Shown here one piece after another: positions 5,336-9,691 of a stretch of 9,691 nt of DNA (position 1 is the first letter of the stretch; every line of letters begins with the position of its first letter). Position numbers and translations under genes: made by a program. The stretch covers positions 1 to 9,691 of the forward strand of contig JASHXW010000243.1 in NCBI GenBank assembly GCA_030043395.1, given 5' to 3'. This DNA comes from Streptosporangiaceae bacterium (lineage in GTDB: Bacteria; Actinomycetota; Actinomycetes; Streptosporangiales; Streptosporangiaceae). The notes beneath the pieces are model-generated. The model worked only from the letters and a program-made list of their open reading frames with translations. It was not told where the DNA came from and made no database searches.

Positions 5336-5436
5336 TTGTCCCCTGTTTGTCCACAGGCGACTCCGGGAACTGCACCACATCCTGACCAGTTATGCACAGA
5401 ATCCGCGAGGTTCTCCACAGTGACGAGTAATCCACA
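5336..5436 (+). promoter_or_regulatory. Cluster of DnaA-box-like nonamers
   Basis: Four nonamers lie on the same strand: TTGTCCACA (5347-5355, the actinobacterial consensus), TTATGCACA (5390-5398, fitting the classical TTATNCACA), TTCTCCACA (5411-5419) and TAATCCACA (5428-5436). A degenerate TTGTCCCCT precedes them at 5336-5344. The third box directly abuts the sulfurtransferase GTG at 5420 and the fourth is inside its coding sequence. The first box is also flanked by CCTGT/ACAGG arms (5342-5346, 5353-5357). Such clusters bind the initiator DnaA. Outside oriC they can titrate DnaA or regulate a promoter. No dnaA or dnaN gene is present, so this is not the standard oriC context. Confidence 0.6.
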
Positions 5437-6319
5437 GGCTAACGCCGGAAAAGGGCCCCTGATCAGCCCCGCGCAGCTGGCCGAGCAGCTCGGTTCACAA
5501 GCCGCGCCGGCGCTGTTCGACGTGCGCTGGCAGCTCGGCGGACCGCCGGGAGTCAAGGCTTACCAGGCCGGCCATCTGCCCGGCGCCGCCTTCGTCGACC
5601 TAGACCAGGACCTAGCCGGCCCGCCCGGCTCTGGCGGTCGGCATCCCCTGCCCGAGCCAGCTGTCTTCGAGCGGGCGATGCGCGCGGCCGGGCTGCGAGC
5701 CGGGCAGCCGGCGGTTGCCTATGACGGCGGCGACTCGACGATCGCGGCCAGGCTGTGGTGGATGCTGCGGCACTACGGGCACCACGCCGTCCAGGTGCTT
5801 GACGGCGGATTCCGGGGCTGGGTAGCGGCGGGCCTGCCGGTGACGACGGACGTTTCGCAGCCGCGGCGCGGGGACTTCGTGGTCAGCGTGCCCGGCTCAC
5901 TTGCCGTCCTTGACGAGGCCGGCGCCGCCAGGCTGGCCAGGTGCGGCTTCCTGCTGGACGCAAGGCCGGGGGAGCGCTACCGCGGCGAGGTCGAGCCCGT
6001 GGACCCGGTGGCGGGCCACATCCCCGGCGCTATCAGCGCGCCGACGAGGGAGAACGTGCGGTCCGACGGCACCTTCCTGACGCCTGAGGAACTGCGCGGC
6101 CGATTCGCTGCGCTCGGCCTGCCGGCCGGCGCCCAGCCGGCGGCGGCGCCCGACGGTAGCTTGCTGATCGGGGCGTACTGCGGCTCGGGCGTCACCGCTG
6201 CCCATGAGATCCTGGCGCTCGAGCTCGCTGGGCTGCCCGCAGCGCTCTACGTTGGCTCCTGGTCAGCGTGGACCGCCGACCCGGCAGGCCCTGTGGCGAC
6301 CGGCTCAGACCCTGGCTGA
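5420..6319 (+). CDS. sseA: Thiosulfate/3-mercaptopyruvate sulfurtransferase (two rhodanese domains)
   Basis: A 299-residue tandem rhodanese protein. The first domain (about 13-145) is the inactive structural copy, with LFDVRW (32-37), AGHLPGAAFVDLDQDL (50-65) and YDGGDSTIAARLWWMLRHYG (101-120), where Asp replaces the catalytic Cys. The second domain (about 160-290) has LLDARPGERYRGE (178-190), GHIPGAISAP (199-208) and the active loop YCGSGVTAAHE (253-263), with catalytic Cys254. CGSGV favours the 3-mercaptopyruvate type over a strict thiosulfate rhodanese, but paralogues vary. The GTG at 5420 gives a normal-length protein and has GAGG at 5407-5410, 9 bases upstream. The frame is open back to a TTG at 5336, but that extension is built from the DnaA-box region and is not protein-like. 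Two DnaA-like boxes straddle its start codon. Confidence 0.9.
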   Translation: MTSNPQANAGKGPLISPAQLAEQLGSQAAPALFDVRWQLGGPPGVKAYQAGHLPGAAFVDLDQDLAGPPGSGGRHPLPEPAVFERAMRAAGLRAGQPAVAYDGGDSTIAARLWWMLRHYGHHAVQVLDGGFRGWVAAGLPVTTDVSQPRRGDFVVSVPGSLAVLDEAGAARLARCGFLLDARPGERYRGEVEPVDPVAGHIPGAISAPTRENVRSDGTFLTPEELRGRFAALGLPAGAQPAAAPDGSLLIGAYCGSGVTAAHEILALELAGLPAALYVGSWSAWTADPAGPVATGSDPG

Positions 6320-6355: not shown

Positions 6356-6862
6356 TTACCACCGCGATCGCCAGAGCAGGTCACGCCGGATGGCTAGGAC
6401 TAGCCAGGTCATGGCGCCGGCCACGAGGGCAAGCCCGGCTGGATCCGGGCCGAGGACCCGCAGGGCAGCCGTGGCGGCCGCTCCCGCGGCCACGAGCGTG
6501 AGCGCTATCCGGAACGGGCGGCCGCGAGCCCGGCGCCGCGCGGCGCGGGCTAGCTGGCGGCTGATGGTCATGAGCTTCGGCCGGGCGATCGCGGTGCTGG
6601 CCGGCCGGCCATCGGCCGAGGAGCTGGCCCGCGCCTGCTGACGGCCTGCCGCTGTCCGGAGCATGCTGTAGGCGGCCGCCGCGTCCGCGAACCGGTCAGG
6701 GTCTCCGCCGTCATCGCGGTCAGGATGCGTCAGGGACGCCACCCGGCGCCAAGCCGCGCGCACATCGTGGTCAGTGAGCTCGGCCTCGCGATCCAGGCCA
6801 AGCACCCCGAACACCTCGGGCGGGTCCGGGCGAGGCGGCAAAGGACCGCGCGGCCTGATCAT
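6356..6862 (-). CDS. Membrane-anchored J-domain protein (DnaJ-like co-chaperone)
   Basis: A 168-residue protein with an N-terminal J domain (about 15-72): PPEVFGVLGLDREAELTD, then AAWRRVASLTHPDRDDGG with the essential HPD tripeptide at 46-48, then FADAAAAYSMLRTA. There is no Gly/Phe region or zinc finger, so it is a class C J-protein. A basic linker (about 95-117) precedes two hydrophobic segments (about 118-137 and 141-158) that should form a membrane hairpin, placing the J domain in the cytoplasm. Its ATG overlaps the ATPase stop (TCAT at 6859-6862) and a GGAG lies 8 bases upstream, so it is coupled to the ATPase gene. It probably recruits DnaK to the membrane, perhaps to remodel the adjacent ATPase complex; this is inference from context. 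Confidence 0.85.
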   Translation of the reverse strand: MIRPRGPLPPRPDPPEVFGVLGLDREAELTDHDVRAAWRRVASLTHPDRDDGGDPDRFADAAAAYSMLRTAAGRQQARASSSADGRPASTAIARPKLMTISRQLARAARRRARGRPFRIALTLVAAGAAATAALRVLGPDPAGLALVAGAMTWLVLAIRRDLLWRSRW

Positions 6863-8754
6863 CGTGGCGGCTCCGGCCCGAACGCAGCGTCGAGTACCGA
6901 GCTGACGTCGGGCAACTCAGTGATCGGCATGACTGCCGAGTCGTCGTGCCCGCGTTGCTTGCTGCGAGGATGGGCTAGCTCAGCAGGTTCCGCCTGGGCC
7001 GCAGCGCCACCCGCTGCCGCGGCGGCGTCGTCCGCCGTCAGTCGCTTGACCTGGATGTAGCTGACGCCGCCGCGGCAGATGTAGGCAGTCTGAAGGTCCT
7101 CGAAACGACGGGCCCGGTTCGAGTCGACCACCGGCTCGTCCCGCAGGCGTGAGCTACCCTGCCGGGCCCAGGTTCCGAATCGCCCGATCCGCCTGGTCGT
7201 TTCGATGACCCTTCTGCTTCCCGCCAGGGCGGCGACCGGCTCCGGCTGCGGGGTGCGGAGCAGCCAGACACCGCCGTCCGCTGCGTTCACGACCCGCTTG
7301 CGCTCGTCGTCCGTCTCGCCGAGTCCCTGCCACGACTGCACGCTGACCTGCACGGCGAGGCCGAGTGACCGCGCGCGCTCGCAGAGGTCGCGGATGGTCA
7401 GCCGCCGGCTGACCGCGCTGAACTCGTCGACGGCCAGCAGGATCTGCCGCTGCGCTCCGCGCACGATGAAGCTATCGATCAGCTCGACGATCGCCTTGGC
7501 CTGAACCTCGGCGGCAGCGATCTGATCGATTCCCTCCAGGATGCAGTACCAGGCGTCCGCACCGGCGAACTCGCCGGGCCCGTCGAAGCCGGGGCCCAGC
7601 CGCCCGAACAAGGTTCGCAGTCGCATCGACACATCGGTCAGGTGCCGGGCGGCCCCTCTCAGGTCAGGCTCGAGTGGCGAGGCCGACCACGCGGCGTACT
7701 CGGCTTCCAGCCACCCCGGCGCGAGCCTGAGGAGCAGCTCAGCCGAACTGGCCGGCGGCCCGGACGGCGCTTCGGCGGCCAGCCCGATCAGGGCCTGCAT
7801 CATGTCCTTGTAGTAGGCGGCTGCTCCTGTTCCGTGCTCGACCAGCTCGACGAGCTTGGTCGTTAGCTCGCGGGGCGGCAGCGACCACAAGGACAGGCTG
7901 TTCTCGTCGGGCCAGACGGCGACCCTCGCGCCGAGCGCGCCCATGATCCGGCGGAACCGCTCAGCGGTCTCCCTGGCCTGCGCGCCGCCCTTGCAATCCA
8001 CCACGATGAGGAGCGGCCGCAGCGCCGCCCCGGCTGCGTGCTTGCGCAAGCCGGCCAGCATGAACGCGGCCCACATGCGGAGCATGAGCGTCGTCTTGCC
8101 TGCGCCTGTCGTTCCGAGCATGACCTGGTGCGTTCGCATCAGATCGAAGCCCAGGGCCGCGATCGGCACGGGACGGTGACCGACGGTCCTGATGACAGCA
8201 CCGAGCACGATGAGGTCGCTGCTCGTCACCAGTGGCACTGAGCCTGGCGCGGAGATCCTGCCCTTGGCCGCCCGAACCTGACGGCTCCACTGACGCTGGT
8301 CGAAGTTGACTGAGGCGGCAGGGGAGAGCCCGCCTGTGCCGGACTCCATGGCGCCGATCCGCCGCGACCAGATCAGCGCGCCCGCCAGCAGCCCGACGGG
8401 GATCGCCGGCGGCGCGACCGTCGCCGCCGCGCGGAGGTAGGCGCCTGCGCGGGTCAGCCGCCAGAACGTGAGCCACGCATGGTACGGCGCGGTGAGCAGG
8501 CTCATCCAGTCGTGCGTGCTCAGGCCCGTCGCGACCAGCCACACTGCGATCATCGGCCCGCACCAGGCGGCGGCCAGCGCCAGCCGCCGGGGGAGCCAGC
8601 CACGCCAGGAGGCCATGGTCACCGCACCCGCTGCGATCACCGAAGCGGGTGCCGCAGCTACCGCCAGGGCCGCCATGACGGCGCATCCCGTCCCGAGCAG
8701 CGCCGCCCGTGCGATCGGGTGCGCGGCCGCGCCGCTGAACCCGTGCCGGATCAT
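6859..8754 (-). CDS. Membrane-anchored FtsK/TraB/VirD4-like DNA-translocase ATPase
   Basis: A 631-residue protein. The N-terminal part (about 13-130) carries roughly four hydrophobic segments (13-33, 34-48, 58-78, 113-130). The ATPase core follows: Walker A GTTGAGKTT (214-222) after THQVMLG, a VVDCKGG motif (251-257) like the DxKG motif of the FtsK/VirD4 class, and Walker B ILLAVDEFSAV (438-448, Asp443-Glu444). SVQSWQGLGE (471-480) and ADGGVWLLRTPQ (492-503) match sensor and arginine-finger-like regions of conjugative coupling ATPases. The C-terminal 60 residues are Ala/Pro-rich and acidic. No FtsK gamma winged helix is seen. It is predicted to pump DNA or protein at the inner membrane, as TraB or a T4SS coupling protein does. 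The ATG at 8754 overlaps the upstream stop (TCAT). The frame is open to 8880, but that extension overlaps the preceding gene by 130 bases. Confidence 0.85.
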   Translation of the reverse strand: MIRHGFSGAAAHPIARAALLGTGCAVMAALAVAAAPASVIAAGAVTMASWRGWLPRRLALAAAWCGPMIAVWLVATGLSTHDWMSLLTAPYHAWLTFWRLTRAGAYLRAAATVAPPAIPVGLLAGALIWSRRIGAMESGTGGLSPAASVNFDQRQWSRQVRAAKGRISAPGSVPLVTSSDLIVLGAVIRTVGHRPVPIAALGFDLMRTHQVMLGTTGAGKTTLMLRMWAAFMLAGLRKHAAGAALRPLLIVVDCKGGAQARETAERFRRIMGALGARVAVWPDENSLSLWSLPPRELTTKLVELVEHGTGAAAYYKDMMQALIGLAAEAPSGPPASSAELLLRLAPGWLEAEYAAWSASPLEPDLRGAARHLTDVSMRLRTLFGRLGPGFDGPGEFAGADAWYCILEGIDQIAAAEVQAKAIVELIDSFIVRGAQRQILLAVDEFSAVSRRLTIRDLCERARSLGLAVQVSVQSWQGLGETDDERKRVVNAADGGVWLLRTPQPEPVAALAGSRRVIETTRRIGRFGTWARQGSSRLRDEPVVDSNRARRFEDLQTAYICRGGVSYIQVKRLTADDAAAAAGGAAAQAEPAELAHPRSKQRGHDDSAVMPITELPDVSSVLDAAFGPEPPR

Positions 8755-9470
8755 GAGCCTGCGGCTAAGGGTGCTGGTGGCGCCGCGGCATCGGGCAGGG
8801 GGCGGACCAGGATCCGCGCTGCTAGGCCGCCAAGGGCGGACCTGGCCCTGACGACCACTGGCTTGGCGTCGTGCGAGCACACGTAAAGCGCCCGCGAGTG
8901 AATTGGCGGCTGCCCGGGCACCCGGACGCGTGCTGGCGGGCAGCCGTAGTCTCCCGTGCGAGTCAGCAGCTCACGCATGATGGCCACCGTCCTGTCGACG
9001 GTCTTCGGAGTCAGCTCGGCTTCTATCGCCCAGCATTCGCCTGCCCACTCGTGCGGTGTCAGTTCCGGCCAGAACAGCTGCCCGTCGGGGATGTGCTCGC
9101 GCGCCCCGACCGGGCGGCCGAACTGCGCGCGGATTCTGCGCTCGCTACGCCAGTACGCCCGGCCGGCCGCATACTCCGGAGCCGCCTCGAGCGCGAGCCG
9201 GCTGGCGACGACCGCACGCAGGTGCGCCAGCCTGGATAACCCGGGAGCAGAAGCCTTGTACGGCAGGCCGCACGCCTGCAGGCCGGCCTCAGTAAGCCAG
9301 ACCCAGCGCTGGCCTGGCCCGAGCCTGGCTGCCGCGGCCCAGCCCGCTTCCCGCCAGCGTGTCAGTACCTTCGCGGCATGGCGCGGGCTCGCGCCGAGCA
9401 CGATGGCCAGCTGATCGACCTGCAGGCCGTACATCTCGCCGGTAAAGACCAGGCCATCGGACCGGATCAC
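8751..9470 (-). CDS. Replication-relaxation-like winged-helix protein with PD-(D/E)xK-like residues
   Basis: A 239-residue protein. The N-terminal third (about 8-70) reads as a winged helix: GEMYGLQVDQLAIVLGASPRHAAKVL forms the helix-turn-helix, followed by a wing ending VWLTEAGLQACGLPY. The central part has WRSERRIRAQ (107-116), HIPDGQLFW (126-134) and WAIEAELTPKTVDRT (147-161). The order Glu110, Asp129, Glu150-x-Glu152, Lys156 resembles a PD-(D/E)xK nuclease core. The C-terminus (about 195-225) returns to beta-strand-like sequence (ALYVCSHDAKPVVVRA). I recognise it as like the replication-relaxation family of actinobacterial plasmids and integrative elements. It probably binds DNA next to the ATPase and may be a nuclease, but catalysis is unproven. 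The GTG at 9470 is the only upstream start; GGAG lies just 2 bases before it, which is close for a normal ribosome site. Confidence 0.78.
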   Translation of the reverse strand: MIRSDGLVFTGEMYGLQVDQLAIVLGASPRHAAKVLTRWREAGWAAAARLGPGQRWVWLTEAGLQACGLPYKASAPGLSRLAHLRAVVASRLALEAAPEYAAGRAYWRSERRIRAQFGRPVGAREHIPDGQLFWPELTPHEWAGECWAIEAELTPKTVDRTVAIMRELLTRTGDYGCPPARVRVPGQPPIHSRALYVCSHDAKPVVVRARSALGGLAARILVRPLPDAAAPPAPLAAGS

Positions 9471-9521
9471 ATCTCCATCACACCACGCTCACGCAAGACC
9501 TGGCCTGTTCCAAGGCTTCTG

Positions 9522-9691
9522 ATGCAACACGGGTGCCGGTGCTGGTGCGAGCGGAGCGCGTACTGCACAATGTGCGTGGAACATCTGTGGCAACGCCCGG
9601 CAATGGCGCTGGCGCCTATCTGCCAGATGGCCGAGATTCGTTGGGGAAGACGCAATCTCGTCGGCTGGCAGGGAGGTCTAGTGGCCGTACG
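9522..9691 (+). CDS. Possible Cys-rich protein or start of a divergent gene (partial, runs off the edge)
   Basis: From an ATG at 9522 the frame stays open to the window end (56 residues). It begins MQHGCRCWCERSAYC and continues TMCVEHLW. Cysteines at 5, 7, 9, 15 and 18 and a His at 21 would suit a zinc- or cluster-binding site. The ribosome site is weak (AAGG, 6 bases upstream). A stronger signal lies further along in the same frame: AGGGAGG at 9670-9676 followed after four bases by a GTG at 9681. The real gene may therefore start at 9681, with 9522-9680 as leader. I do not recognise the family. The antisense frame is also open, so coding status is uncertain. Confidence 0.3.
   Translation, partial: MQHGCRCWCERSAYCTMCVEHLWQRPAMALAPICQMAEIRWGRRNLVGWQGGLVAV
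9565..9575. promoter_or_regulatory. Perfect 11-bp palindrome GCACAATGTGC
   Basis: GCACA-A-TGTGC is a perfect inverted repeat about 95 bases before the start of the minus-strand operon and 106 bases before the + GTG at 9681. The position suits an operator shared by divergent promoters, perhaps bound by the winged-helix protein of the operon itself (inference). Confidence 0.35.
9632..9660. repeat. Inverted repeat CGAGATT / AATCTCG
   Basis: CGAGATT at 9632-9638 is matched by its exact reverse complement at 9654-9660, with a 15-base spacer. The spacer is long for a terminator stem and no T-tract follows. A two-half-site operator or a transfer or recombination site is more likely. It ends 20 bases before the GTG at 9681. 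Confidence 0.4.

Follow-up and report, generated by a model that had tools for sequence, protein, structure and literature searches.

A chromosomal operon of a candidate relaxase, a membrane pump ATPase and a J-domain protein in actinobacteria: a possible domesticated mobilization core

Conjugation cores are regarded as tools of mobile elements. What, then, might a candidate relaxase and a coupling-type pump be doing in an operon with their own J-domain protein, among ordinary chromosomal genes? We address this question for a stretch of 9,691 nucleotides from a Streptosporangiaceae bacterium (contig JASHXW010000243.1 of assembly GCA_030043395.1), called here the window, which carries on its minus strand gene 1 (relaxase candidate), gene 2 (pump ATPase) and gene 3 (J-protein). 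A check of the open reading frames found all three where the original prediction had placed them, and both internal junctions read ATGA, a 4-base overlap, confirming its claim of a coupled operon. According to the best-supported reading, which we hold with moderate confidence, the operon is a domesticated chromosomal mobilization core with a dedicated J-protein; this matches one of the options first put forward for it, that of a domesticated conjugation remnant. An integrative mobilizable element (IME) is the most likely source of the gene 1–gene 2 pair, and the operon probably serves the host in this lineage, because there is no integrase beside its usual site and it is mostly inherited with its neighbours. 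A search of the open-licence literature found no description of this three-gene operon.

On this reading, the three proteins would be made together by translational coupling. The product of gene 1, a MOBC/PF13814-like relaxase combining a winged helix with a PD-(D/E)XK-like nuclease, would bind and nick a chromosomal site, and a membrane hexamer of gene 2 would pump the processed DNA. Gene 3 would bring DnaK to the pump, where the relaxase–DNA complex or the motor might be freed or remodelled.

Gene 1 is a candidate relaxase of the MOBC/PF13814 type. Relaxases with PF13814 have been labelled MobC (PMC5357655), MOBC relaxases are described as PD-(D/E)XK-related (PMC12857230, PMC6499999), and an N-terminal winged helix-turn-helix (HTH) is reported for one of them, TraX (PMC12857230). 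This trait of MOBC/PF13814 relaxases is present in the structural model of gene 1 (predicted local distance difference test 91), as a MarR-type winged helix. Among the residues invariant in an alignment of 67 gene 1 proteins, Nocardia proteins included, are E110, D129, E150, E152 and K156; PF13814 is matched by 32 of these 67 proteins (E ≤ 0.01; best E 9.4e-6), and another relative of gene 1, P0213, has PF13814 in its precomputed annotation. Five canonical PF13814 proteins, taken from the genomes numbered G342 and G741 in our survey, were included in a further alignment of 14 proteins. H83, W107, D129 and E150 of gene 1 are also common to these five, D129 and E150 are found in all 14 proteins, canonical ones included, and may be catalytic, E152 is either E or D (D in the canonical proteins), and E110 and K156 are not kept by all of the latter. 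A Walker-A frame lies upstream in three of the five canonical loci, as found by pattern, and a P-loop was seen by eye in a fourth (L094); we read these frames as coupling proteins. Foldseek returned a FokI match (E 5.8e-3) for the full-length model, with match lists filled by the winged helix; the VIA list effectively tested residues 1–71 only, and the absence of a nuclease from it is uninformative. NCBIfam gave no match to gene 1 and PDB sequence searches gave nothing useful. Comparing the gene 1 profile by hhalign with the frames of CloDF13 and of the five canonical loci yielded only probabilities below 4%, mobC not being recognised among the CloDF13 frames.

Gene 2 is, judging from its model, a putative DNA pump of the VirD4/TrwB-like coupling class. 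Hydrophobic segments at residues 24–42, 58–76 and 110–128 provide an N-terminal membrane anchor, as in coupling proteins, and the 33 best Foldseek rows against the PDB are all TrwB (E from 4.8e-10), pointing to the motor fold of a coupling protein. Identity with TrwB and VirD4 is 14–15%, the Pfam TrwB_AAD_bind score lies just below the cut-off (20.4 versus 20.5), and NCBIfam returned only rows far below cut-off. By VIA-align, HerA, VirB4 and DndH chains score as well as TrwB or better, so that gene 2 could also belong to another branch of the pump class.

Relatives of the three genes are numerous. Protein searches, which scored a limited candidate set (about 8000 for each gene) and thus give lower bounds, detected at E ≤ 1e-3 at least 1831 relatives of gene 1, at least 1542 of gene 2 and at least 1323 of gene 3. 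A profile scan of genome contigs with gene 2 recovered 48 loci: L001–L021, from the family of Trebonia (two of them labelled Nocardiopsis/Nocardiopsaceae), and 27 from Nocardia; a scan with a single protein instead of the profile confirmed no relative. L049–L077 come largely from the same genomes as L001–L021 and were counted once. Gene 1 stands before gene 2 in all 27 Nocardia loci and in 17 of the other 22, the window counted; in the remaining five (L009, L015, L016, L018 and L020) the contig starts in or just before gene 2. Of the 17 loci showing both gene 1 and gene 2, 11 have an overlap of exactly 4 bases between them (starts were chosen by script, and some of the other six have an implausible one); among the 20 loci whose sequence continues for 150 bases or more beyond the ATPase gene, 15 have a 4-base overlap between genes 2 and 3, the window counted in both cases. 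Since relatives number more than 1000 per gene and the overlaps recur, this conservation is more than chance. Two loci keep all three genes with other frames inserted: between pump and J gene in L006 (11863–13700), and between gene 1 and pump in L012 (5704–9900), the locus of the cultured soil carrier Trebonia kvetii, where we read one frame as sulfatase-like. Gene 2 occurs in 25 of 341 genomes of the Trebonia family; samples of the order and of the phylum have it in 14 of 297 and four of 396 genomes, Trebonia being included in all three counts. In the family search three candidates were scored for each genome, and many of these genomes are incomplete metagenome assemblies.

The J domain of gene 3 (PF00226) scores 30.1 bits against a Pfam cut-off of 27.8 and is followed by C-terminal hydrophobic segments at residues 119–137 and 140–158; at least one such segment is present in each of 15 J-proteins tested. 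Gene 3 may recruit DnaK. Of 23 related loci with room for a J gene downstream of the ATPase, 20 have one. Among the 22 loci, 20 allowed a judgement on gene 3, which follows directly in 18, lies about 1.6 kb away in L006 and is not seen in L007; of three further loci, L085 has it, and in L082 and L083 it was not found. Lack of room left out L008 (118 bases), L011 (45 bases) and L084 (J start at the contig end), and the downstream scan showed only frames with HPD or starting at −4 or −1. The J-protein is not obligatory for the gene 1–gene 2 pair: none of the 27 Nocardia loci gave a J match, and in two other actinobacterial genomes (L086 and L087) the pair is followed by a HEAGH-bearing frame and no J-protein, that of L087 being of the Pfam M48 peptidase type (E 1.4e-12). 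In Nocardia locus L022 the third frame contains one hydrophobic segment and matches no Pfam family. In L086 and L087 the pair sits in a common chromosomal setting, different from the usual site described below. In searches of the open-licence literature, no paper joined a J-domain protein to conjugative transfer and a coupling protein, or to a mobile genetic element and a relaxase, and none linked a coupling protein and a relaxase to Streptosporangiaceae.

These data bear out part of what the original prediction had read from the window. Its winged-helix/nuclease-like label for gene 1 agrees with the modelled winged helix and the invariant acidic and lysine residues of the second domain, its FtsK/TraG-type membrane pump with the membrane segments and the TrwB-best Foldseek matches of gene 2, and its dedicated membrane J-protein with the HPD-bearing J domain and hydrophobic C-terminus of gene 3. 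Its view that no relaxase was visible was wrong or incomplete, gene 1 being a relaxase candidate, albeit one that in the window fails to match PF13814. It had also tied the distinctness of the system to a J-protein in most homologous loci, which holds for the loci with room (20 of 23), and to a place outside an ordinary conjugative element; no usual-site locus shows other transfer genes beside the module.

The module has a usual chromosomal site, with exceptions. Where 1.3 kb or more of upstream sequence is available, 10 of 16 loci have DUF3145 no farther than 3 kb upstream (missing in L006, L008, L012, L013, L014 and L021; the window's own DUF3145 start, seen by eye, is left out of this count); where 1.4 kb or more of downstream sequence is available, 12 of 18 have a rhodanese gene no farther than 5.1 kb downstream (missing in L004, L005, L007, L013, L014 and L015). 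One or both accompany the module in 18 of 22 loci; neither does in L008, L013, L014 and L015, or in L082–L085. FabF or AccD genes follow beyond DUF3145 in L001, L003, L004, L005 and L017, and in Trebonia the contig that carries gene 2 has DUF3145 too, about 15 kb away. No integrase was found beside the usual-site loci. In Mantel tests, which take in only loci having the neighbours concerned, gene 2 distances correlate with those of rhodanese (r 0.58, n 12), phosphodiesterase (0.69, n 10), DUF5998 (0.83, n 8) and DUF3145 (0.63, n 10; all p ≤ 0.0004). Gene 1 distances correlate with rhodanese (r 0.69, n 8) and phosphodiesterase (0.58, n 7) and show no correlation with DUF3145 (r 0.20, p 0.18); J distances correlate with rhodanese (0.60) and DUF5998 (0.70) and not with phosphodiesterase (0.26, p 0.07) or DUF3145 (0.05, p 0.44). 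Mostly vertical descent under purifying selection fits these sequence comparisons, because distances mostly follow the flanks and dN/dS over six pairs is 0.11–0.47 for module genes (flanks 0.06–0.36). In ten family genomes without the module (L095–L104), chosen for having DUF3145 and rhodanese close together on one contig and thus not random, the interval contains a sigma-70-family factor and a CHAT/TPR protein in eight and an S8 protease in six; queries with the sigma, CHAT and S8 proteins found nothing in module loci. This suggests that the interval is a slot in which one cassette can replace another.

Could the operon instead protect the cell? The main rival, which we consider unlikely, is a defence system in which the nuclease and a HerA-like translocase would together find foreign DNA and destroy it at the membrane, while the J-protein would act as a sensor or help in assembly. 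Gene 2 does resemble the MADS model mad8, but it is alone among the three proteins in doing so: genes 1 and 3 match no MADS model, and the MADS protein set is not present. The N-terminal hydrophobic segments of gene 2, the first rank of TrwB in Foldseek and the agreement of gene 2 distances with those of flanking genes also argue against defence, as does the reported pairing of PF13814 relaxases with coupling proteins in mobilizable elements (PMC5357655).

A domesticated mobilization core raises the question of a channel, and none was seen beside the module. A VirB4-like ATPase (PF12846) is encoded in all 12 carriers tested and in 118 of 120 family genomes, unlinked to the module in the carriers read. 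In G001 it is accompanied by NlpC/P60-SLT, TrbL/VirB6 and TcpE proteins (a TcpF match has E 9e-70 but is below the curated cut-off), and in G342 the VirB4-like and TrbL proteins adjoin. A chromosomal cluster of NlpC/P60-SLT, VirB6, VirB4/TcpF-like and TcpE genes was observed in L105 (4409–13867). Other coupling-type proteins exist in some genomes, since TraG-D_C matches occur in seven of 12 carriers and three of eight non-carriers; the only one of G001 sits on another contig. The operon and this unlinked, nearly family-wide VirB4/VirB6/TcpE-like channel (of the cmd kind) might then form a split DNA-transfer machine that is wholly chromosomal. The operon would feed the channel, chromosomal DNA would pass from one hyphal compartment or mate to another, and DnaK, brought to the pump by the J-protein, would strip the DNA of its relaxase. 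We regard this as quite unlikely; because the VirB4-like ATPase occurs with and without the operon, the link to the channel is hypothetical.

It is also improbable, in our view, that the operon is a remnant or slow mobilizable element whose integrase is gone from most genomes and which persists by chance or still moves occasionally. Its mobile-looking cousins speak for this: L085 (261–5978) has genes 1, 2 and J, the last overlapping gene 2 by 4 bases, and, about 1 kb upstream of them, a large serine recombinase; L088 has a gene 2 relative only, with a serine recombinase; and there are the Nocardia loci, of which L022 has an HTH_17 (excisionase-like) and a weak DUF2637-like protein. So do the other settings of L013, L014 and L082–L085 and the missing J gene of L007, L082 and L083. 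Purifying selection on all three genes, the recurrence of the usual neighbours across diverged genomes and the retention of the genes despite inserted DNA in L006 and L012 stand against it. The combination of integrase and variable insertion site that marks an IME or an actinomycete integrative and conjugative element (AICE) was not found: no integrase was recognised within the window, such genes standing only next to cousins such as L085, and 18 of the 22 loci have one or both of the usual neighbours. A plasmid or phage origin of the window copy was rejected, gene 2 having one weak plasmid match (25.5% identity over 57%) and no phage match.

The Nocardia loci (L022–L048) have a recurring element around genes 1 and 2, with small HTH, coiled-coil-like and DUF2637-like HTH proteins and a third membrane frame. 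It is possibly an integrative or plasmid-like family, and we read recurring frames in some of these loci as resembling integrase, serine recombinase and ParA; in a plasmid search the Nocardia proteins yielded a single partial match, for gene 2, and none for gene 1.

A protein-handling machine, in which the pump would move or unfold proteins, the J-protein or M48 protease would handle them and gene 1 would merely regulate, is very improbable: both occupants of the third position, the J-protein and in L087 the M48-type peptidase, are of protein-quality-control types, but the invariant acidic and lysine set of gene 1 is unexpected in a plain regulator and the best structural matches of gene 2 are mostly DNA translocases.

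We prefer the reading as a domesticated mobilization core, against which several observations weigh. The window's own gene 1 protein does not match PF13814 and profile comparison gave a weak result; the usual site, having exceptions, is not universal; and one of the two family genomes without a VirB4-like match, G195, is a module carrier, which counts against the split machine as well.

The features of the window are collected in Table 1. Its left part consists of chromosomal genes (MHYT, peptidase S51, HIT, DUF5998, phosphodiesterase, rhodanese). A 74-codon frame (9691–9467), open at the window edge and overlapping gene 1 by 4 bases, was rejected as a fourth gene, since it falls in the divergent leader of the DUF3145 gene. 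Ten aligned loci show conserved blocks in this leader, with a TG-rich element directly 5′ of the GTG start that could possibly be the −10 element of a leaderless mRNA; no oriT-like repeat was recognised in this intergenic region of the window.

Table 1. Positions of the operon, its motifs and its flanks in the window
Feature	Position	Strand	Remarks
Gene 1, MOBC/Replic_Relax-type relaxase candidate	8751..9470	-	239 aa, GTG start; winged helix residues 1–71, then nuclease-like domain
Gene 2, membrane-anchored HerA/VirD4-class translocase ATPase	6859..8754	-	631 aa; best Foldseek match TrwB
Gene 3, J-domain protein	6356..6862	-	168 aa; hydrophobic C-terminal segments
Candidate catalytic residues E110, D129, E150, E152, K156 of gene 1	9003..9143	-	Invariant, 67-sequence alignment
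Walker A GTTGAGKTT of gene 2	8089..8115	-	
Walker B residues D443 E444 of gene 2	7423..7428	-	
HPD motif of gene 3 J domain (residues 46–48)	6719..6727	-	
Divergent intergenic region, gene 1/DUF3145 gene	9471..9680	.	Conserved blocks in aligned loci
Flanking DUF3145 gene start, cut by window end	9681..9691	+	GTG start placed at 9681
Flanking convergent rhodanese/sulfurtransferase gene	5420..6319	+	

The operon is found in the chromosome of some soil actinobacteria, usually in the same place. It illustrates what surveys can miss, as a 2011 survey of actinobacterial integrative and conjugative elements sought only MOBF among relaxases (PMC3218068). If the preferred reading is true, a relaxase–coupling-protein pair with its own membrane J-protein would be a conjugation core taken over for cell biology. 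The operon would also offer a handle on how a relaxase is unfolded or released at a coupling protein, and on whether DnaK participates.

A domain with a conserved nuclease-like residue set presumably unites gene 1 with TraX of pAD1, a MOBC relaxase whose residue pattern is probably the same. The N-terminal winged HTH described for TraX (PMC12857230) is a further likeness, whereas no oriT direct repeats were recognised in the window and nicking by gene 1 is presumed. Streptococcal IMEs are reported to combine a PF13814/MobC relaxase, a VirD4 coupling protein and a serine integrase (PMC5357655, PMC12479173). As in their class 8 (PMC5357655), a PF13814-type relaxase candidate adjoins a VirD4-type pump, with a serine recombinase near the module of L085; the usual-site loci differ in that no integrase was found, a J-protein is added and inheritance is mostly with the neighbours. 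Gene 2 resembles TrwB and VirD4 in Foldseek matches, membrane segments and Walker motifs, but its low identity, its near miss in Pfam and the equal VIA-align scores of HerA-class chains set it apart. In Thermus, the TdtA translocase and an associated NurA-like nuclease act in DNA donation (PMC5365140), but TdtA belongs to a self-excising element and the abstract mentions no J-protein. Streptomyces TraB/Spd proteins and AICEs (PMC12857230, PMC3218068) also join an actinobacterial membrane pump to membrane partner proteins, whereas TraB is described there as FtsK/SpoIIIE-like, moving double-stranded DNA and borne by plasmids or AICEs. Finally, cmdABCDEF of Streptomyces coelicolor, reported as a chromosomal VirB4-like membrane cluster affecting sporulation and chromosome segregation (PMC2782261), is by description a channel-type cluster, whereas the operon is a relaxase–pump pair; it nevertheless gives a precedent for a chromosomal VirB4-like cluster, and the VirB4 cluster of this family resembles it by description.

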